DNA of 64,000 nt from Nitrospinaceae bacterium (GTDB lineage Bacteria; Nitrospinota; Nitrospinia; Nitrospinales; VA-1). The stretch's first letter is position 1. The number at the start of each line of letters is the position of its first letter. The translations under genes were made by a program, and so were the position numbers. The stretch lies in NCBI GenBank assembly GCA_029261455.1, contig JAJDBH010000116.1, positions 1 through 64,000 on the forward strand, read 5' to 3'. Below, in pieces: positions 5,661-62,920 of this stretch. The notes beneath the pieces are model-generated. The model did no database searches. It was given only the letters and a program-made list of their open reading frames with translations, and had not been told where the DNA came from.

Positions 5661-7313
5661 TTAGAAATCCATGGGTGAGGGCGAGTTTTTAGGTAAAAGA
5701 ATTTGAAAAAACCCTACTTTTTCCTGAAAGCCATAATGGTCTAAGAGGAATTTGTAGAGATGCGGGGCATAATGTAAAAGTCGTCTTTCTTCTTTTCCAT
5801 CAATGGCGATATCTACAAAAATCACCACTTTGGGTGGATTTTTTTTCAATATTGCGACCAGCTCTTTTTCTTTTGATTCCTCCAGCATGCCCGGTAAAAT
5901 CCATTCATAGGGTGTCGGATTGGTCCGGTCAGAGAGAAAATAAAAAATAGGATTCAGTGGCAAAGCCAGAATAGTGTCCCCTTTTTGCGAATACAGGTCT
6001 ATTTTTTCAATGACCTCTTTAATCCACTTTGCTTCTGCGGGGTTGGTGTAGATATCCACCTTATCTAGAGTTAGGCGAGTGGTCTCCAGTTTCATGGCAC
6101 CGATGCTACCGGCATAAAAACCGTGATGTGTGTTCATCTCAAAATAAAACAAAAAGGGTAGGAAAACGGTGAGAAGGTTCAAGGGCAACCGAGTTAAAAG
6201 GCTCTTGTGCTCAACTTGATTTTGAGAGGAAAGAACCTTCTCCCTGATTCGATACAACAAATAACAAAATAGCAAATAGAAAGGAGGCAGGGTTCTTAGT
6301 AAATTGTCGAATCCTGCTCGCCATATAACCAGACCAAAGGAGCAAACCCCGAATAGCAGAATGGAAATAACTGTCAGGTTACCAGCATGAAGCGGTTCTT
6401 TTTTAAGAACGAGTTGATAAAAAAGAAGGGCCGCTGCAATGCTGCAGATCAAAATGGGTAGATAGAACAAAACCCTTTCAAACATCTGGTGGTACCCGAC
6501 TTCTTTGAGAAGCGTGAGAAAAGGAAAAATCTCTGGAAACGGGTTACCCCAGACCTCATGCGCATCGATGACCATTTTGAACACTTGCATGAAATAGCCG
6601 TCCTGCCCAAGATAGATCCCACATGCAATTGCCGTGATAGAGACCCCGGTTGCCAGATAGTAATTTTTGCGGGGGAAATGTGCTGTCTTTTTTTCCGGAA
6701 AAAAATGAGTTCGCCATTGTTTCTGGCTGAACATCAAGGCCACCACTGTCAGGCTAATTAGTGTCGAAAAGAGAGTCACTTCGAATTTAAAAAAGGCACT
6801 TAAGAAAATGCCTACACCCAAACCTGCTAAAGACCCAAGATTTTTTTTGTATAAAAAGTTTGTAATGAGATAGAGGTTCAGAACGACAAAGAAAGTGAAG
6901 AAACGATTGTAATACATCGAAGGAGCGGAAAGCATGAACAGAGCCGCAAGCAACGCAAAGCCGGCTGGCATGATTTTCCGCCCGATGGAATAAACCATTA
7001 AGACCATAGGTGGTGTAATTAGCAGAACAGAAATACGCAGGCTTTGAATATCTACCCCGAATAGTTTGAAAAACAGCATTCCATACCAATATCGACCGGG
7101 GAGGTAGCCATTGGGATTGAAATCTATAAGTGCTCTTTCCCCGTTAAGAGTTCTTAGGGTTCCATTGGCATACCCCCCTTCGTCCCAAATATTAAGTCCA
7201 TATTTGGAGAAGGACCAGAAATAAGCCAACAGCGCTAGATAGAGTATTGAAACCCGGCCCCATTGTTTAGCCGGGACGACATGATCGCCGTCTGGGTTGG
7301 AAGGGTTATTCAT
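5661..7313 (-). CDS. GT39/PMT-like polytopic membrane glycosyltransferase
   Basis: WDEGGYANGTLRTLNGERALIDFNPNGYLPGRYWYGMLFFKLFG (acidic first-loop motif) plus many TM segments. Confidence 0.65.
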   Translation of the reverse strand: MNNPSNPDGDHVVPAKQWGRVSILYLALLAYFWSFSKYGLNIWDEGGYANGTLRTLNGERALIDFNPNGYLPGRYWYGMLFFKLFGVDIQSLRISVLLITPPMVLMVYSIGRKIMPAGFALLAALFMLSAPSMYYNRFFTFFVVLNLYLITNFLYKKNLGSLAGLGVGIFLSAFFKFEVTLFSTLISLTVVALMFSQKQWRTHFFPEKKTAHFPRKNYYLATGVSITAIACGIYLGQDGYFMQVFKMVIDAHEVWGNPFPEIFPFLTLLKEVGYHQMFERVLFYLPILICSIAAALLFYQLVLKKEPLHAGNLTVISILLFGVCSFGLVIWRAGFDNLLRTLPPFYLLFCYLLYRIREKVLSSQNQVEHKSLLTRLPLNLLTVFLPFLFYFEMNTHHGFYAGSIGAMKLETTRLTLDKVDIYTNPAEAKWIKEVIEKIDLYSQKGDTILALPLNPIFYFLSDRTNPTPYEWILPGMLEESKEKELVAILKKNPPKVVIFVDIAIDGKEERRLLHYAPHLYKFLLDHYGFQEKVGFFQILLPKNSPSPMDF

Positions 7314-7316
7314 GGC

Positions 7317-8498
7317 TCATTCTTTGAAAAATGCCCGCATCTCCTGGGCGAGACTCTTATTTTCTTCAAGAATACTTTCAAAGTTTGGACTGATTTCTCC
7401 TGGAACTTGTAACCTTTGCTTCACCTTGAAAATTCGTGCGAGGGATTGGTCGATAGTGGGGCGAGGAATGACTCCACCTTCAATGTCTCGAATCAGGGCA
7501 TCCTGAAGTGTTGTTACTTTTTCCAGGTCGTGGCAAATGAGGAAAATATCAACTCCGGCACGGGTTCCCAGTTCAGGAATGGATTCCACCTCATCTTTGA
7601 TGGCCTGCATTTCCAGATCGTCTGACATGATCAGCCCTTCAAAACCCAGAGAATTTCTCAACACATCATTCATAATAGTAGGGGAAAAAGTGGCAGGGCG
7701 GTCAGCATCCCAAGCCGGGTAGACCACATGTGCTGTCATGAGGACCTCCAGCCCTTGCTTGATGGCGTGATGGAAAGGGGGCAACTCAATTTGTTCCAGT
7801 GACTCTCGCGTTCGTTCAACCCTAGGCAGGGTGAGGTGAGAATCCTGGGAGGTATCTCCGTGTCCGGGAAAATGTTTGCCAACCGGGATGACCCCGGCGT
7901 CATAAAATCCGAGAATCAATTCAGCACCTAAACGTGCCACCTTTTCTGCATCACTATCCAGAGCCCTGTGTCCAATGATGGGGTTTGCAGGGTTGGAGTG
8001 GACATCAAGAACCGGAGCGTAGTCCATATTCACTCCGACCGCTCGCAACTCTTTTCCCATTCCAAGTCCGAACCGGTAAGCCAGTTCATTTGAGTCGGCT
8101 TGACCCAGGCAAGACATGGGAGGAAACTGGGTAAAAGGTGCGCCCAGTCGAGCGACTCTTCCGCCCTCTTGATCTACCGAAATGAACAGCGGAGGAATTT
8201 CCGGGTTGTCTGATGTTAACGACTGGAGGTCGTGTATCAATTGCCGCAATTGATCAGGATTCTTGAAATTGCGCTCGAACAGAATCAAGCCGCCAATGCC
8301 CTGCTGAACAATCAGTTCTTCCGTGCGGGTATTGAGGGTGGTTCCCTCAAACCCTGATACAATCATTTGGCCGGTTTGTTGTTTCAGCGAGAGCAAAAGG
8401 AATAAGAGTCGTGTTGATGAACAGGGTTTGCCATTACTGCAAGCGGGCATCGTTGCCCGGTTCGGCACCCGTATGTTACCATAACTTAATAACGACAA
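7317..8498 (-). CDS. nagZ: Beta-N-acetylhexosaminidase (glycoside hydrolase family 3)
   Basis: QEGGRVARLGAPFTQFPPM, GVNMDYAPVLDVHSNPANPIIGHRAL, KHFPGHGDTSQDSHLTLP; exact start uncertain (could lie near 8400). Confidence 0.85.
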   Translation of the reverse strand: MSLLSYGNIRVPNRATMPACSNGKPCSSTRLLFLLLSLKQQTGQMIVSGFEGTTLNTRTEELIVQQGIGGLILFERNFKNPDQLRQLIHDLQSLTSDNPEIPPLFISVDQEGGRVARLGAPFTQFPPMSCLGQADSNELAYRFGLGMGKELRAVGVNMDYAPVLDVHSNPANPIIGHRALDSDAEKVARLGAELILGFYDAGVIPVGKHFPGHGDTSQDSHLTLPRVERTRESLEQIELPPFHHAIKQGLEVLMTAHVVYPAWDADRPATFSPTIMNDVLRNSLGFEGLIMSDDLEMQAIKDEVESIPELGTRAGVDIFLICHDLEKVTTLQDALIRDIEGGVIPRPTIDQSLARIFKVKQRLQVPGEISPNFESILEENKSLAQEMRAFFKE

Positions 8499-16101: not shown

Positions 16102-16161
16102 GTTTTTGAAGGTATATCAGCCCTTTTGAGGGTGAATATTACAGAATTTTTTTGGGATTTT

Positions 16162-17322
16162 ATGTTTCTATCGAAAAAAAGTCCATTAGTGGCCATCGAC
16201 ATTGGATCTTCTTCCATCAAGCTGGTTCAGTTGACTGAATTTAAAGAAGGCCAGTATGAACTGACTCGTTTTGGCATGATGCCGTTGGAAGAGGAATGCA
16301 TTGTTGAAGGGGCGATTAAAAAGCCCGATCAGGTAGCGGCGGCCTTGAAAAATTTAATCAAAGCTGAAAAAATTCAAAGCCGTTTTGCCGTTTCTGCAGT
16401 TGCTGGAGAAGCGGTTTTCATAAAGAAAATAAAAGTTCCGGTAATGTCGGAGGAGGAGCTTTCTGCAAAGATAACCCAGGAAGCGGAGCAGTACATTCCT
16501 TTCGATATTGACGATGTGGCTCTCGACTTCCAAATACTGGGTGCGTTAAATGCTGAAAAGGAAAGGGGGACCGAAGGTTCGGAAGATTCGGAAGAATCTG
16601 AACCTACTGTTGATTCCCCTCAAGATAATGGGGAGCAAAAAGAGGACTCGAATGAGGAAGGGGAAATGATGGAAGCCCTTTTGGTCGCGGTTCAGAGGGA
16701 CGTCATTGATGAGAGGACGAATATTCTTCTGGAAGCAGATTTGAAACCTGCCATCATTGATTTAGATGTGTTTGCATTGATGAATGCGGCACAGTTGACC
16801 ACTGACTTGTCATCAATGGGCACCATAGCTCTGATTGATCTGGGAGATTCTTTCACTCATATCAATATTATCCAAGATGGGGCAATGGGTTATACCCGAG
16901 ATATCCCTGTTGGGGGAGGGTATTTGACCAATATACTCATGTCAAAATTTCAGATTCCCTTTAAACAAACCCTTGACATAAAACGGGGCAAGTTCCCTTC
17001 AAGTATTAAAGAAGAGGAAGTAGTCGAAGTTATTCTCCGAGCCTACAAAAAAGTTTTAGAGGAGGTTCAAAAATCATTCGAATATTTCAGCACCCTGTCT
17101 GATCGCAAGATCGAGCGAGTTTTGTTGTGCGGGGGGGGGAGTATGATTCGGGGACTAGATGGATATTTTGCTGATCATCTAAAAATGCCCGTAGAGATTC
17201 TGGACCCAATGCAGGGGGTTAAAATAAATCCTAAAAACTTTGATCAATCATTGATCGATGAAATGAGCGGGTTATCCACAGTTGCCTTGGGTTTAGCTAC
17301 AAGGAGGTTTGACTATAAATGA
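16162..17322 (+). CDS. pilM: Type IV pilus assembly protein PilM
   Basis: VAIDIGSSSIKLVQL actin-like fold; GDSFTHINII; LLCGGGSMIRGLDGY; start at MFLSKKSPLV. Confidence 0.92.
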   Translation: MFLSKKSPLVAIDIGSSSIKLVQLTEFKEGQYELTRFGMMPLEEECIVEGAIKKPDQVAAALKNLIKAEKIQSRFAVSAVAGEAVFIKKIKVPVMSEEELSAKITQEAEQYIPFDIDDVALDFQILGALNAEKERGTEGSEDSEESEPTVDSPQDNGEQKEDSNEEGEMMEALLVAVQRDVIDERTNILLEADLKPAIIDLDVFALMNAAQLTTDLSSMGTIALIDLGDSFTHINIIQDGAMGYTRDIPVGGGYLTNILMSKFQIPFKQTLDIKRGKFPSSIKEEEVVEVILRAYKKVLEEVQKSFEYFSTLSDRKIERVLLCGGGSMIRGLDGYFADHLKMPVEILDPMQGVKINPKNFDQSLIDEMSGLSTVALGLATRRFDYK

Positions 17323-17984
17323 TTCGAATCAATCTCCATGACTATCGATATGAGCTAAGAAAAATTGAGATCCAGAAGCGGGTGGTTAAATGTGCTGCGA
17401 TCATTACTGCGGCGTTCTTTTTTGTTATAGCCATTTGGTTGATGGAGCAGGCTCGCCTGGATTCGATAAGACTTGAGACGATCAACCTGGAGTCACAGGT
17501 TGCGGCTTTGAAAAGTCAGTATAAAAAGGTCAAAGCCATGGAAGCCAAACAGAACCGTATGCAGACTATCATTGCGGGGATTGAAGGTTTAAGAGAAAAA
17601 CAAATGCCCGCGAACATAATTGTCAGCGATTTGAATATGACAGTTCCTGACGATCTTTGGTTGTCTTCTATCATACAGAAGGATGCCGAAAGTCTTCGGG
17701 CAAAGAAAATTCCTGTCATCATGTTTGGTGACCCCGCTAAGAAGAAAAAGAAAAAGAAAAGGAAAAAGAAAAAGGGAGCGATAAGCCCCACAAAAGAATT
17801 TGTAGAAGTTTCGGGCTATGCCCTGACTGAAAAAGGGGTGGTGGAGTATGTGAAAAGGTTGCAGGAACTTCCTTATTATGAATCTACTTTCCTTTATAAA
17901 TCAGCCCAGGTAGTTATTGGGGGAGAGGCGATTTACAACTTTATTATTTATTGCTATATGCCGGAAAAGAAGAAATCGGCTTAA
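17319..17984 (+). CDS. pilN: Type IV pilus assembly protein PilN
   Basis: MIRINLHDYR N-terminus, single TM, position directly after pilM; ATGA overlap. Confidence 0.9.
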   Translation: MIRINLHDYRYELRKIEIQKRVVKCAAIITAAFFFVIAIWLMEQARLDSIRLETINLESQVAALKSQYKKVKAMEAKQNRMQTIIAGIEGLREKQMPANIIVSDLNMTVPDDLWLSSIIQKDAESLRAKKIPVIMFGDPAKKKKKKKRKKKKGAISPTKEFVEVSGYALTEKGVVEYVKRLQELPYYESTFLYKSAQVVIGGEAIYNFIIYCYMPEKKKSA

Positions 17985-17993
17985 TCAAAGACT

Positions 17994-18668
17994 ATGGAAC
18001 AATTGTTCGATAAATTACCCTACGATGATCTAGAGGATATTCAGTTCATCCATTTGCTTGCAGGAGCAATAGGTATAGGCTTTGTACTTTTCCTTATCTA
18101 TTTTTTCACCTTGCACAGCGTTGCAAATGAGGAATATGAGAGCCTCCTCAAACAGAAGGATGGGGCAGAGAGAACCCTTCGACGATACAAAGCAACCGTT
18201 GCTAAAGAAGACGTGGTGGCAAAAAATGTGGCTCGCGTTAAGGGACAGTTTGATGCGTTTAAAAACCAAATGCCCAGTCAGGATGAGCTTCCCGATTTGA
18301 TACAACAGATAGCTGAATTTGGAAAGCATAGAAAAATCAAGATGGTTGCTCTCACTATGCAGGAGGGTAAAGTTGGAGATTTTTATAAAGAGATTCCCTT
18401 GAAAGTCCAGATAGATGGGGAATTATGGGTCACGCTCGATTTCATTGAATATATGCAGAATCTTTTACGTCTGGTTAATTTTGAAGATCTAATACTCCAG
18501 GGGCAGAGCGCGTCCAACTCTAGAAGAAATACTGCGGGTGCTACAGTGGGCTCTTTGAATACCACGTTAATAGCAAAGACTTACTCGTTTATTGAGGGTT
18601 CAGAAAATCGTTCGCCCAAAAAAAAGAAATCGCCAACTAAGGCGGTAAACAAGAAAAAAGGGCATTGA
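17994..18668 (+). CDS. pilO: Type IV pilus assembly protein PilO
   Basis: Single TM, coiled coil, LWVTLDFIEYMQNLLRLVNFEDLIL; position after pilN. Confidence 0.88.
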   Translation: MEQLFDKLPYDDLEDIQFIHLLAGAIGIGFVLFLIYFFTLHSVANEEYESLLKQKDGAERTLRRYKATVAKEDVVAKNVARVKGQFDAFKNQMPSQDELPDLIQQIAEFGKHRKIKMVALTMQEGKVGDFYKEIPLKVQIDGELWVTLDFIEYMQNLLRLVNFEDLILQGQSASNSRRNTAGATVGSLNTTLIAKTYSFIEGSENRSPKKKKSPTKAVNKKKGH

Positions 18669-18694
18669 GGTCTTTTAAAGGATGATGTTTGAAC

Positions 18695-20179
18695 ATGAGA
18701 GCTAGGTTATATTTGAAAATTTCATTTTTCCTGTGGATAGTTTTGGCAGGGCTCCAGCCTATTGTAGCTTCTGCAATGACTCCTCCTGCTCAGGAAGATC
18801 TGCGTTCTCGAAACTATAGGCTTAATACGTTATTCAAATATAGTGGCCTTAAAGATGTTTTAGGGAACATTGAATCTATTGTACAAATTTCAAAAAATAT
18901 TAGTGAGGATGCCTTAGCTCCAGGGCAAGGTGAATTTGCACGGGAAATTATGAACCAGGCATATTCCTCTGGTAAATTTTTCAGTGTTTTGAGGAAACCT
19001 TTTAATGAAGATTACAAACCTCAGCATGTTCACTCGGCAACTCAATGGTATAGAAGCACATTGGGAAAAAAAATATTAAAGCTTGAGGCAGAAGCGAATG
19101 ACCCCGTCAACCGGATAGCGCTGGAAGAATTCGTGAAAAAAATATCAAATACTCCTCCGAGTGAGATGCGAATAAGGTTGGTGGAGAGAATCGAGAACTC
19201 TGCTCATTTGACGAAATCCGGAAAAACGCTTTTTCTGGGGTATGTCAAATTGATGCAGCCCTTTAATAAAAATATTGATAGAAAAGAAGCTGGCAAATTT
19301 TTGAGAGTGTTAGAGAAAAGCATTACTGAACCCATGCGGGAAGTGGTTTTGCGGAGCCTGCTTTTTAGTTTTAGAAATCTTAAAGATAAAGAGATCGAAG
19401 AATATGCCCGGTTTTTAAATTCCGACTCCGGTCAGTGGTTCAACCAGAAGGTCTTCAACGGTTTTAAGAAAGGGGTTAAGCGAGCTTTATATAAAGCAGG
19501 TCTAATTCAAGTCGATTTGTTGAAAGAAATCGACTCTGGTGGACCAGATTACCCTTTGTTAAAGGACATGGTTCCACCCGGACAAAGATATCTACTGATT
19601 GGGAAACGAGATCCTTTTCAGCCTCTAGTAAACAATAAGGGGCTGGTTGTTTTTACTGAACCCGATTTACGCAGGTTTGAAGCCCGATTGTTTGGGGCCG
19701 AGTTAAAAGATATTCCACCCGTTGCCTTGCAGGTTTTTGAGGAAATTGAAGACCGACACCCCAAACTTTATAAAAAATTAAAGTACTTCGAGTTCTTGTT
19801 CAATAACCAGGAAAAACTGGAAGATCTGGAAGATGAAGAATATGCCCAGGTTGTAGCGGATTATCGCGATGCGCTGGAGAAGTCTTCTGAAATCAGAATG
19901 GATGAGTCGCCCTTGCAGGTTGACTATAATTCTCTGAGAATGACAGGAATCATCAAGAAAAAAATGGAAGCGGTGGCCATGTTCGAGATTGAGACAACCG
20001 GATATGCGGTGAAAAAAGGCGACAGGATTGGTCCTTTCTTCGGGTACGTGAAAGAAATACAGGGCGATCAGGTAATTGTGATCGAAGAGTTCAGGGATTA
20101 CCTCGGTAATATCCTGACAAATAAAAAAATTATTCAATTTTCACAGAGCACACCCATCGAGGGTAATACGAACTCATGA
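18695..20179 (+). CDS. pilP: PilP-domain protein with large DUF2059-like N-terminal module
   Basis: C-terminal GIIKKKMEAVAMFEIETTGYAVKKGDRIGPFFGYVKEIQGDQVIVIEEFRDYLG is PilP-like; N-terminal signal peptide and ATQWYRSTLGKKILKLEAEA resembling DUF2059; locus position between pilO and pilQ. Confidence 0.75.
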   Translation: MRARLYLKISFFLWIVLAGLQPIVASAMTPPAQEDLRSRNYRLNTLFKYSGLKDVLGNIESIVQISKNISEDALAPGQGEFAREIMNQAYSSGKFFSVLRKPFNEDYKPQHVHSATQWYRSTLGKKILKLEAEANDPVNRIALEEFVKKISNTPPSEMRIRLVERIENSAHLTKSGKTLFLGYVKLMQPFNKNIDRKEAGKFLRVLEKSITEPMREVVLRSLLFSFRNLKDKEIEEYARFLNSDSGQWFNQKVFNGFKKGVKRALYKAGLIQVDLLKEIDSGGPDYPLLKDMVPPGQRYLLIGKRDPFQPLVNNKGLVVFTEPDLRRFEARLFGAELKDIPPVALQVFEEIEDRHPKLYKKLKYFEFLFNNQEKLEDLEDEEYAQVVADYRDALEKSSEIRMDESPLQVDYNSLRMTGIIKKKMEAVAMFEIETTGYAVKKGDRIGPFFGYVKEIQGDQVIVIEEFRDYLGNILTNKKIIQFSQSTPIEGNTNS

Positions 20180-22095
20180 GAAAACAAATGTTCAAAAAAT
20201 CCCATTATTTAATGATAGCTTTTATTTTATTATTTTTGACTGCTTGGCCTGCAAATTCTGCAGTCCTGCTGGGAGACCATCAACAATCGTCTTCATCGGG
20301 CATTAATGGGGATAAAAGGACAGCTCCATTAATGATGTTGGCTCAAAACCAGAGCGGGGGCACAAGTAGTATGCCTTTGGGAGAAATTGTTTCTCTCAAC
20401 ACAAAAGAAGATGGGCAAAGCTCTATTGTTTCTATCGAATCTAATCAGTCTGTTCAATACACGGCGTTTAAACTTCTGAACCCGCTGCGACTCGTTTTAG
20501 ATTTCCCGAAAATGGATAAAGGAAACCTGATCAGCCGCATTCAGGTTGATAAAGGGATCGTGAATTCCATCCGCCCCATACATTTTAAAGAGGCGGGTGT
20601 ATTGCGCTTGGAAATAGTTCTCAACCAATCAGCAGACTATGAAATTAAAAAACCCTCAAAAAACAAACTAATCGTTCGTCTGCAGTCTTCAGGGAAGGCG
20701 TCAGGTCAGGAAATGGCTCAGTTTCAGCCTGTGAAGGAGACAGCTTCTTCCAATGCCCCTATGAAAAGTGACGCATTATCTACATCATCTGTAGGAGAGA
20801 AGCTTGATGCGTATGATGCTGCTAAAGATACGTGTTATCCCATGTTATATGGAAAGAAAGAAACAGTTTCTCTGGATTTTCAAAACGCGGATGTCCGTAA
20901 CCTTTTTAGAATATTTGCGGAAATAAGTGGATTCAATGTCATTCTTTCTCCTGAAGTAGGGGGTTCCGTAAATATTAGAATGATGGATGTGGCTTGGAAT
21001 GAGGCGATGGAAATTATTCTCACCAACAGCAGTCTGGGACGGGAATGCTTTGGGAACAATATTGTTCGCATTGTTACCAAAGCTGTTCTTCAGGCTGAGG
21101 ATAGCGCTCGCGTTTCTGAAAAAGCCCGCGCGGTGGCCGACAGAGCCAATGAGCGTAATGCGCAAGACCTGGTCACCGAGGTGATTCGTATTGACAATGC
21201 AGATATTACCGAACTCTCAACGAGCCTTACTGCCTTAAAGAGTAGCCGCACTGACGCTCAAATTACCGTGGACACTCGTACGAATACACTAATTATAAAT
21301 GATTTGCGTGAACATGTGGATGACATGCTTGCGACCGTAAGGGTTTTGGATGTTCCCACACCTCAGGTTTTGATTGAAGCAAAGCTTGTTGATATTACAA
21401 AAAATTTCAGCCAACAATTGGGAGTACAATGGGGCTTGACGGGTGATGTTTTTCCAAGCAACCCTAATTCTACGCTAATTTCCTCATCTACCCAGTCGAC
21501 TTCTAATTTTTTAGTGGATTTAGCGGACACTACAAAAACATCTGCTGGAAGTAATGCGGGAATCGGTCTTTTGCTGGGAGATTTGATACCGGGGATGGCA
21601 TTGAATCTCCAGCTGGAAGCTTTGGAGACCGAAAATAAAGCACGAGTACTTGCTTCCCCTAGAGTCATAGTTGCAGATAATAAGGAAGCTAGGATTGAAA
21701 GTGGAGAAACTATACCTTATCAGGTTAATTCGGCCGAGGGTAACTCCATCCAGTTTATCGATGCAGAGCTCAGTCTCAGGGTCACTCCTCATGTGACTTC
21801 TGATGGAAATGTTTATTTGACCATCGATACCACTAATAATAAAGACAGTGGAACAAGAATTCAAAATGTCCCAGTCATAACGACCAGTGAAACGCATACG
21901 GAAGTTTTAGTGGGGAATGGAGACACCACTGTTCTAGGAGGTATCTATAAAAGCAGCAAAAGTGAGAACACAGAGTCGGTCCCATTTTTCTCTAAAATAC
22001 CCATATTGGGACTATTATTTGAAAGTTATAATGATGCCGATTTGATCTCTGAGCTTATGGTGTTTATCACTCCTACCATCATTGAAACAAATTGA
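20176..22095 (+). CDS. pilQ: Type IV pilus secretin PilQ
   Basis: AMIN domain; VSLDFQNADVRNLFRIFAEISGFNVILSPEV; secretin core VLASPRVIVADNKEARIESGETIPYQ...VPFFSKIPILGLLF. Confidence 0.95.
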   Translation: MRKQMFKKSHYLMIAFILLFLTAWPANSAVLLGDHQQSSSSGINGDKRTAPLMMLAQNQSGGTSSMPLGEIVSLNTKEDGQSSIVSIESNQSVQYTAFKLLNPLRLVLDFPKMDKGNLISRIQVDKGIVNSIRPIHFKEAGVLRLEIVLNQSADYEIKKPSKNKLIVRLQSSGKASGQEMAQFQPVKETASSNAPMKSDALSTSSVGEKLDAYDAAKDTCYPMLYGKKETVSLDFQNADVRNLFRIFAEISGFNVILSPEVGGSVNIRMMDVAWNEAMEIILTNSSLGRECFGNNIVRIVTKAVLQAEDSARVSEKARAVADRANERNAQDLVTEVIRIDNADITELSTSLTALKSSRTDAQITVDTRTNTLIINDLREHVDDMLATVRVLDVPTPQVLIEAKLVDITKNFSQQLGVQWGLTGDVFPSNPNSTLISSSTQSTSNFLVDLADTTKTSAGSNAGIGLLLGDLIPGMALNLQLEALETENKARVLASPRVIVADNKEARIESGETIPYQVNSAEGNSIQFIDAELSLRVTPHVTSDGNVYLTIDTTNNKDSGTRIQNVPVITTSETHTEVLVGNGDTTVLGGIYKSSKSENTESVPFFSKIPILGLLFESYNDADLISELMVFITPTIIETN

Positions 22096-60381: not shown

Positions 60382-61647
60382 TTAAATTGTCAGGGTTTTC
60401 GAAATGATTTTAGCCATTTTTTCAGAGGCGCCTTTTTGCTCCGTGGTGAAGGAGAGGGCTTTTTCTGCTAGTTCTTGGCGTAGGCTTTCGTTTTCCAGCA
60501 AGCTATGCACTTTTTCTTTGATATCCTTAGAGTTCTTCACCGTAATAGCTAGCCCCAGTTCATGTGCTTTGTCGGCGACATGACCGATATTTTCAATAAA
60601 AGGTCCATGCATAACTGGCAGGCCGTATGACAGCGGTTCGATCAGGCTGTGGCCTCCACCAGGTTTTAAAAGGCTTTTGCCAATGAGAGCTACTTGCCCT
60701 AAGGAGTAAACCTGAGCTAGTTCACCCATCGTATCAAGGAGGATGACAGTTTTTGCATGTTCCATTAAGGACCGGAGGGTGAATGAAATGTTTTTCTTTT
60801 TAAGGAGCGTGACCACTTCTTCTACTCGTTCAATTCTGCGTGGCGCAAGGATCAAAACCAGATTGGGGTGCTCAGCTTTCAATTGCTGATGTGTTTCCAA
60901 AATAATTTCTTCCTCACCGGCATGGGTGCTGCCTGCTACCCATACTGGCGTGTCTTTCTTAAGCTTGAAAGTTTTTCGCAATTGTTCTTTCTCTGCATCG
61001 GTCAGTGGTTGTTGCGCGTCATATTTAGGATCGCCCATCACCTCAATACGCTCCCGGTCCACACCTAGAGTTAGTGCAGCTTTTTCCCCATTGTCGTTTT
61101 GCATGCCAAGGTGATGAAACTTTTGAAAGGTGTCTTTGAAAAGGGAGCCAGCGATAAGGTATCGTCGAGCGGACCTTTCAGATAAACGGCCGTTGAATAA
61201 AAGAATCGGGATTTTTTTTCTATATAACAGGTCGATCAAGCCGGGCCAGAACCCAGTGTCGGTGACGACATGAAGATCGGGATTGATTCGTTTCAATGCC
61301 AGTTGAGTGAAGGGTAGGCAATCAAGCGGATGAAAAAACACATAGTCGGCGATGCTCATTTTGAGTGCTGCGGCATAGCCCGAGTCAGTGGTTACAGAAA
61401 GCGCGATAGTGAGTGTGGGGTTTTGCTCACGCACCCGTTTGAGGACGGGTGTGGCGGCTACGACCTCTCCCATCGAAAGCGCATGCAACCAGAGGGTTTT
61501 CCCGTCCGAATTTTTTATGGTAGGAACCCATCCAAAATGATGGATCAGCCCTTTCCACTTATGTTTGGAGGACAACGCTATGAGTGAGAACAGGGGGAGA
61601 AGAAGGATTGCGACAAAAAGTGATAGAAGGTGATAAAAATAAATCAT
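60382..61647 (-). CDS. waaA: 3-deoxy-D-manno-octulosonic acid transferase-like, divergent copy
   Basis: LWLHALSMGEVVAATPVLKRVREQNPTLTIALSVTTDSGY; PGGGHSLIEPLSYGLPVMHGPFIENI; start set at MIYFYHLLSLF. Confidence 0.82.
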   Translation of the reverse strand: MIYFYHLLSLFVAILLLPLFSLIALSSKHKWKGLIHHFGWVPTIKNSDGKTLWLHALSMGEVVAATPVLKRVREQNPTLTIALSVTTDSGYAAALKMSIADYVFFHPLDCLPFTQLALKRINPDLHVVTDTGFWPGLIDLLYRKKIPILLFNGRLSERSARRYLIAGSLFKDTFQKFHHLGMQNDNGEKAALTLGVDRERIEVMGDPKYDAQQPLTDAEKEQLRKTFKLKKDTPVWVAGSTHAGEEEIILETHQQLKAEHPNLVLILAPRRIERVEEVVTLLKKKNISFTLRSLMEHAKTVILLDTMGELAQVYSLGQVALIGKSLLKPGGGHSLIEPLSYGLPVMHGPFIENIGHVADKAHELGLAITVKNSKDIKEKVHSLLENESLRQELAEKALSFTTEQKGASEKMAKIISKTLTI

Positions 61648-61678
61648 CAAAACGGGTGTCCCATATAGGAGGATATGC

Positions 61679-62920
61679 CTAGGTTGAGCGGATGAGCTCA
61701 ATGTTCCTTCTTAATGCGCCGCTGTTGGCCTTGACTGTTTTTTCTGCAGCTTGGCTCAGCTTCTGGCGTTCGTCCGGGTTCATCAGTAACCGTTTTAAAA
61801 CATCGTAGAGTTCTTCTATATTTTGCAGTTGCAGGCCTCCTTCGGACTGCTTGAAAAGTTTGGCTTCTTCCTCAAAATTATTCATAAATTTGCCGAACAG
61901 AACCGGCTTTCCCAATGCCGCTGGCTCGAGAATATTGTGACCGCCAAACCGGGGATTGAATCCACCTCCAACATAAGCCACAGTTGCGCTTTTGTAGAAG
62001 GCGTTGAGTTTTCCCAGACTGTCTACCAGTAAGACGCTACAGTTTGTCAAGTCATCCTGTTTAGAGAGCAAGGCATACTCCACTTCGAACTCCCGGATAA
62101 GATCTTCGACTTCGCGGCACCTTTCCATATGTCTGGGGGCAATCACCCCGATAAGGTTGGGGAACTCTTTTTGAAGTTGAACCAGTGCCTCCATGATCGG
62201 GCCTTCTTCTCCAGGGCGGGTAGAACCAAAAACCAGGACCATGGAGTCGGCTTTCCATTGCGGCTGGAACTTATCCTCCGTTTCAATAGAGGTCACATCG
62301 AATTTTATGTTTCCTGTAGCCAGAACTTTTTCCTTAGCTACGCCTAACTGCAAAAACCGGTCTGCATCCGTTTGAGATCGCATTGAAAACTGTCCGATCG
62401 ATTCAGTCATCCATAACAGGAAGGCCGGGAACTTTCCATAGCTCTGAACAGATTTTTCCGAGACCCGTCCATTTACCTGGATGACCGGAATGCTTCGGCG
62501 TTTACATAGGCGCAGTAAAGAAGGCCATAACTCTGCTTCGATCAGAACCAGTTTAGAAGGCTGTAAACGATCAAAGACAGGATTCAGCCAGAACGGGAAG
62601 TCCAGTGGCAGTCTAAATACATTGGGAAGTTTTTCTTCTAAGGCTAATGCATAACCGGTGGGGGTAAACGTAGACAGGGCTATTGGGCGGGATTCCCCTT
62701 CCTTGATAAGACCTGCAATGAGGATTTTAGCCAGACGAACTTCTCCAACCGATGAGGCATGAATCCACAACGTATCTTTTAGCTCTGGCAGGGAGTTGGC
62801 TCCCTTCATTCTCCCCTTTATTTCATTGCGGAAAGAGGAAGAGACCAAGGCTCTTAAAATAAGAAAAGGAGAAGCCAAAAGCAGTAGCCCTCCTACAAGA
62901 ATATAATACAAAAAATCCAT
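61679..62920 (-). CDS. waaA: 3-deoxy-D-manno-octulosonic acid transferase
   Basis: LWIHASSVGEVRLAKILI; LIEAELWPSLLRLCKRRSIPVIQVNGRVSEKS; GGHNILEPAALGKPVLFGKFMNNF. Confidence 0.9.
   Translation of the reverse strand: MDFLYYILVGGLLLLASPFLILRALVSSSFRNEIKGRMKGANSLPELKDTLWIHASSVGEVRLAKILIAGLIKEGESRPIALSTFTPTGYALALEEKLPNVFRLPLDFPFWLNPVFDRLQPSKLVLIEAELWPSLLRLCKRRSIPVIQVNGRVSEKSVQSYGKFPAFLLWMTESIGQFSMRSQTDADRFLQLGVAKEKVLATGNIKFDVTSIETEDKFQPQWKADSMVLVFGSTRPGEEGPIMEALVQLQKEFPNLIGVIAPRHMERCREVEDLIREFEVEYALLSKQDDLTNCSVLLVDSLGKLNAFYKSATVAYVGGGFNPRFGGHNILEPAALGKPVLFGKFMNNFEEEAKLFKQSEGGLQLQNIEELYDVLKRLLMNPDERQKLSQAAEKTVKANSGALRRNIELIRST

Follow-up and report, generated by a model that had tools for sequence, protein, structure and literature searches.

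In the type IVa pilus machine, the unstructured N-terminus of PilP contacts PilN and PilO, and its homology-region (HR) domain contacts the N0 domain of PilQ (PMC3441751, PMC5285504, PMC4471445). The family (PF04351) is represented by structures from N. meningitidis (2IVW) and P. aeruginosa (2LC4 and 2Y4X), and by the M. xanthus model 3JC8. The HR fold recurs in GspC of type II secretion (3OSS), where it likewise meets the N0 domain of a secretin; GspC is membrane-anchored and carries an extra PDZ or coiled-coil domain at its C-terminus. DUF2059 (PF09832), a domain called uncharacterised in the literature, is represented by secreted, helical proteins such as PA0856 (2X3O and 3OAO) and BPSL2520 (6F03).

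The DNA analysed here is a stretch of 64,000 nucleotides from a Nitrospinaceae bacterium, referred to below as the window, where a pilP-type gene at 18695-20179 (+) forms a single intact open reading frame of 494 codons followed by a stop. Its product resembles the type IVa PilP proteins in its HR beta domain, its RDPF-type hinge and the position of its gene between pilO and pilQ, and differs from them by a two-unit helical module of ~265 residues before the hinge, a helical insert after it, the lack of a lipobox, and a length of 494 residues as opposed to under 200. The module shares with the DUF2059 proteins, in its unit 1, an SGL-type head and an FY-SPLG-K motif, and is likewise secreted and, as modelled, helical, but it consists of two diverged tandem units fused to PilP, the second of which is mostly unrecognised by Pfam. 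GspC offers a further parallel in that each protein has one extra periplasmic domain, although the module is N-terminal here and the operon is pilMNOPQ. NCBIfam contains no model for a DUF2059–PilP fusion, which is apparently undescribed in the openly searchable literature, where a single paper names PilP as well as DUF2059, each of them once.

A PilP protein in a pil operon

The pilP-type gene is preceded by pilM (16126-17322, +; PF11104, E 6.9e-67), pilN (17319-17984, +; PF05137, E 4.2e-8) and pilO (17994-18668, +; PF04350, E 3.9e-18), and followed by the pilQ secretin gene (20176-22095, +), which encodes AMIN, N0, N1 and secretin domains (PF00263, E 9.9e-46; PF11741, E 2.4e-8; PF21305, E 6.6e-6) and whose ATG overlaps the pilP stop codon (ATGA). 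With aroB downstream of pilQ, the order pilM-N-O-P-Q-aroB is seen both in the window and across the order, and the gene thus occupies the place between pilO and pilQ that is expected of a pilP. Translation could alternatively begin at an in-frame TTG at 18689. The genome also contains a number of ATPases of the pilus type, as well as pilin-like signals; among named organisms, the nearest are Nitrospina sp. and further Nitrospinaceae. In the part of PilN that is expected to be periplasmic there is a long run of lysine and arginine (KKKKKKKKRKKKK), and the middle of PilM contains an acidic insert; both are possibly lineage-specific loops. Far downstream, two waaA-like (Kdo-transferase) genes lie adjacent and overlapping on the minus strand (60382-61701 and 61679-62920).

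The protein begins with a signal peptide (residues 1-27; 18695-18775, +) that ends in an A-S-A site and has no lipobox. A signal-like hydrophobic core followed by an AxA-type site is present in all 22 homologues, and a lipobox in none of the 22, i.e., the N-terminal lipid attachment site expected of PilP is missing throughout. A strict lipobox is, however, also missing from most of the plain PilP proteins of sister families. Its absence is therefore not decisive for membership in PilP and is not tied to the fusion, and the loss of the lipobox as a consequence of the fusion was ruled out on the same grounds.

The hinge (residues 291-312; 19565-19630, +) contains the invariant motif R305 D306 P307 F308 and is the most conserved segment of the protein, with a mean pairwise identity of 56%. 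It is found in the plain PilP of sister families as well and, by analogy, is the probable contact with PilN and PilO. A helical insert (residues 331-402; 19685-19900, +), modelled with a pLDDT of about 77-87, separates the RDPF motif from the beta domain. The same insert occurs in a sister family, in a plain PilP of 223 aa (L067), and its origin therefore predates the N-terminal fusion.

The C-terminus is a true PilP HR domain (residues 403-484; 19901-20146, +), the part expected to bind PilQ through its N0 domain. The PilP profile PF04351 aligns with residues 408-475 (E 1.5e-7; 31.9 bits versus a cut-off of 25.6), and it also matches all 22 homologues. An hmmsearch of the PDB with a profile built from these homologues returned N. 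meningitidis PilP (2IVW, E 1.1e-10) together with four further PilP entries, and AlphaFold modelled most of residues 338-477 with a pLDDT around 77-88. In Foldseek, the top ranks were taken by six PilP chains (3jc8, 2lc4, 2ivw and 2y4x; E 2e-5 to 5e-4), with the HR domains of GspC ranking below (3oss, E 0.07). The T2SSC profile gave a weak match in 4 of the 22 homologues. An identification as GspC was rejected, since the PilP structures rank above 3oss and the gene context is pilMNOPQ and not gsp.

A first-pass annotation of the window had described this gene as a PilP with a signal peptide, no lipobox and a C-terminal PilP beta domain, all of which agrees with the results above. Its length of 495 residues referred to the same gene and included the stop codon, and the helical insert had been overlooked.

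The N-terminal module and its distribution

The module fills the space between the signal peptide and the hinge (residues 28-290; 18776-19564, +), and is composed of two related units. In unit 1, PF09832 matches residues 107-139 (19013-19111, +), including the motif WYRSTLGKKI, with an E of 6.3e-5 and a score of 23.3 bits, just below the curated cut-off of 23.6. The same profile is matched by 21 of the 22 homologues (best E 1.7e-10), and several relatives exceed the cut-off, the best with 41.2 bits. The second signature, in unit 2 (residues 231-254, DKEIEEYARFLNSDSGQWFNQKVF; 19385-19456, +), has S243 and W248 invariant in the 22 homologues; searched alone, unit 2 matches PF09832 in five of them (best E 3e-4), and unit 2 of the protein in the window has no Pfam match. 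Compared with each other, the profiles of the two units scored 24.4, whereas none of 100 column shuffles exceeded 17.8; the alignment spans 102 columns and has both motifs in register. Judged from these profiles, both signatures are real and the second is likely, though not certainly, a DUF2059 domain. The two DUF2059-like signatures are those that had been proposed in the first pass; taken alone, the second is weak.

AlphaFold models of the module, whether within the full protein or alone, were all-helical and had a pLDDT below 50. The matches of the module in the PDB sequence search were to the solved DUF2059 structures 2X3O, 3OAO and 6F03, and were weak (E 0.006-0.02; for 2x3o/3oao, E 0.006 over 36 residues); a match to cytochrome c in the same search was set aside as a chance helical match. 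A DUF2059 match in a transposase-like gene of the same genome (G000:C58) was also judged to be due to chance. Separately, a free-standing DUF2059 protein of ~175 aa is conserved across the order (L070 2417-2938 in the window's own genome; L074-L092). It is not detected by the profile of the PilP module, and between the module and the free-standing protein of the same genome only a short head segment aligns (hhalign probability 37%), which does not establish kinship.

The distribution of the fusion was surveyed in 57 genomes, all of them Nitrospinota. A PilP match was present in 44, and the module profile matched 34, always within the pilP gene; the sole case in which the gene is split (G019) lies at contig ends. 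A free-standing gene for the module was found in none of the 57. In the families f1, f2 and f4, 34 of the 35 genomes with PilP carried the module; in the exception, G006, a fragment of an orphan paralogue was all that was present. None of the 11 PilP-less genomes of these families had the module. It was absent from family f3 (G038) and from families f5, f7, f8 and f9. No homologues of the module were found on plasmids, nor any homologues in viral contigs. In a tree of PilM, PilO and PilQ, all carriers of the fusion form one clade (SH-aLRT 96) that adjoins f3, so that a single gain after f3 had branched off is indicated, i.e., one that the tree places in the common ancestor of three Nitrospinales families, within the Nitrospinota genomes surveyed. 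Selection has since maintained the module: comparison of close relatives gave a dN/dS of about 0.2 for unit 1 and unit 2 alike, as expected under purifying selection.

Possible roles of the module

The evidence supports reading the gene in the window as one for a type IVa PilP, with a DUF2059-like module and in the right operon. By homology with PilP proteins that have been solved and tested, the C-terminal HR domain would dock on PilQ at its N0 domain, and the RDPF hinge would hold PilP to PilN and PilO. Because hinge and HR domain are both kept, docking to PilN/PilO and PilQ is probably unchanged. In the ancestor of the three families, a periplasmic helical protein of two DUF2059-like units would have been placed behind the signal peptide and ahead of the hinge, and the module would now stand in for the lipid anchor and the disordered arm of other PilPs. 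Exported without lipidation, each PilP subunit would contribute one folded helical block at the secretin base, and the blocks, surrounding it, might act as a collar or spacer that stiffens the PilNO–PilQ bridge, or anchor the bridge to another part of the envelope. Of the readings considered, a structural periplasmic collar close to the side of the bridge that faces the inner membrane is favoured and ranks first, and we regard it as evenly balanced between right and wrong. The first-pass annotation had suggested a previously undescribed adaptor that links the PilNO–PilQ bridge to envelope components. Of this, a real PilP with a DUF2059-like module, in the right operon and apparently undescribed, is supported. 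For a link to envelope components beyond PilNO and PilQ, no partner, ligand or confident fold of the module was found.

Second in rank, and clearly less probable than the collar, is a targeting or anchoring domain that would bind peptidoglycan, lipid or an outer-membrane component, thereby positioning the machine and taking over the work of an AMIN domain or of the lipid anchor. AMIN domains are required for positioning in Pseudomonas (PMC5285504), and PilQ has two of them in the sister families tested and one in the carriers of the fusion, f3 and f5; the missing lipobox of the PilP in the window would also fit. The loss of one AMIN domain is, however, common to f3 and f5, both of which are without the DUF2059-like module. 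It thus precedes the gain of the module and does not by itself explain it, and a swap of the module for the lost AMIN domain is not supported. Moreover, no peptidoglycan- or lipid-binding motif was found in the module.

A role as chaperone or assembly factor, in which the module would serve while PilQ or pilins are assembled and be absent from the workings of the finished machine, is unlikely and ranks third. A helical periplasmic module joined to a PilQ-binding protein would suit such a role, and the overlap of the pilP stop with the pilQ start has the same tendency; but overlaps of this kind are common in bacterial operons, and no similarity of the module to known pilotins or chaperones was found.

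The low mean pairwise identity of the module (23-27%, lower than that of hinge and beta domain) could be taken to mean that a chance fusion left behind a useless but tolerated passenger. This is very improbable, as the module is retained in every clearly assembled operon pilP of the three families, invariant residues are present in both of its units among the 22 homologues, and the dN/dS values given above point to purifying selection. Finally, a sequencing or assembly error that joined two genes, a concern raised in the first pass, has practically no chance of being the explanation and was ruled out, because 34 of the 57 genomes share this open frame, among them independently deposited Nitrospina contigs.

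PilP as a carrier of added domains

PilP is unusually modular in Nitrospinota, and the fusion in the window is one of several kinds. An orphan gene outside any pil operon encodes two secretin N0 domains of the PilQ type, then the helical insert and the beta domain of PilP, and is present in five genomes of the Nitrospina genus to which the window belongs, including the genome of the window itself (L031 6281-7705, on G000:C100; also L046, L047, L048 and L068). In genus g3, a chimera of the order AMIN-N0-N1-PilP (L032 4835-6478, L033 7963-9546, L040 6882-8525) corresponds to the periplasmic half of a secretin, without the pore, joined to PilP, and is located between the DUF2059–PilP gene and pilQ. 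In family f3, which splits off immediately before the fusion clade, a plain PilP of 278 aa (L034, 5901-6734) is followed by an N0-N0-PilP chimera (6803-8326) and then by pilQ. These chimeras (L031, L032, L034) have the same PilP insert and beta domain as the gene in the window, but carry N0-N0 or AMIN-N0-N1 of PilQ instead of the DUF2059-like module, and have separate origins. The orphan groups with the PilP and PilQ N0 of its own genus, apart from the f3 and g3 chimeras (98/91 in the tree of the PilP part, 90/91 in that of the N0 part), which argues that PilQ–PilP chimeras arose at least three separate times. They may have originated when pilPQ was duplicated in tandem and an internal segment was then deleted, which would put the PilQ part ahead of the PilP part, in a gene between pilP and pilQ.

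Further enlargements are seen in other families. The PilP proteins of f5, encoded in pil operons, have 867-890 aa (L042 6459-9128, 890 aa; L043 5928-8528, 867 aa), and one of them carries DUF3352, the remaining sequence being unassigned. In two f9 genomes, an extra domain without a name, of some 140-170 residues, precedes the hinge (L063 4233-5372, L065 722-1828), and these proteins have a lipobox-like site, S-A-G-C or S-V-G-C. Among the secretins themselves, two adjoining genes follow pilP in L041 (8506-10425 and 10406-11923), the second without a recognised AMIN domain.

It is tempting, if distinctly speculative, to see in PilP an exchangeable carrier through which the pilus machine has gained whole layers: in Nitrospinales a collar resembling DUF2059, in another family a block resembling DUF3352, and, on at least three occasions, the N0/N1 domains of PilQ. 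The chimeras could then form adaptor rings stacked between PilP and PilQ, or else compete for the interface of the two. That N0 became fused to PilP repeatedly and independently suggests that altering the PilP–PilQ interface is useful.

The usual picture of PilP is that of a small lipoprotein whose arm is disordered; across a whole lineage of marine nitrite oxidisers, a conserved block replaces this arm. The fusion gives a first functional context for a DUF2059-like domain, and predicts that extra density would be seen at the level of PilP and PilNO in tomograms.
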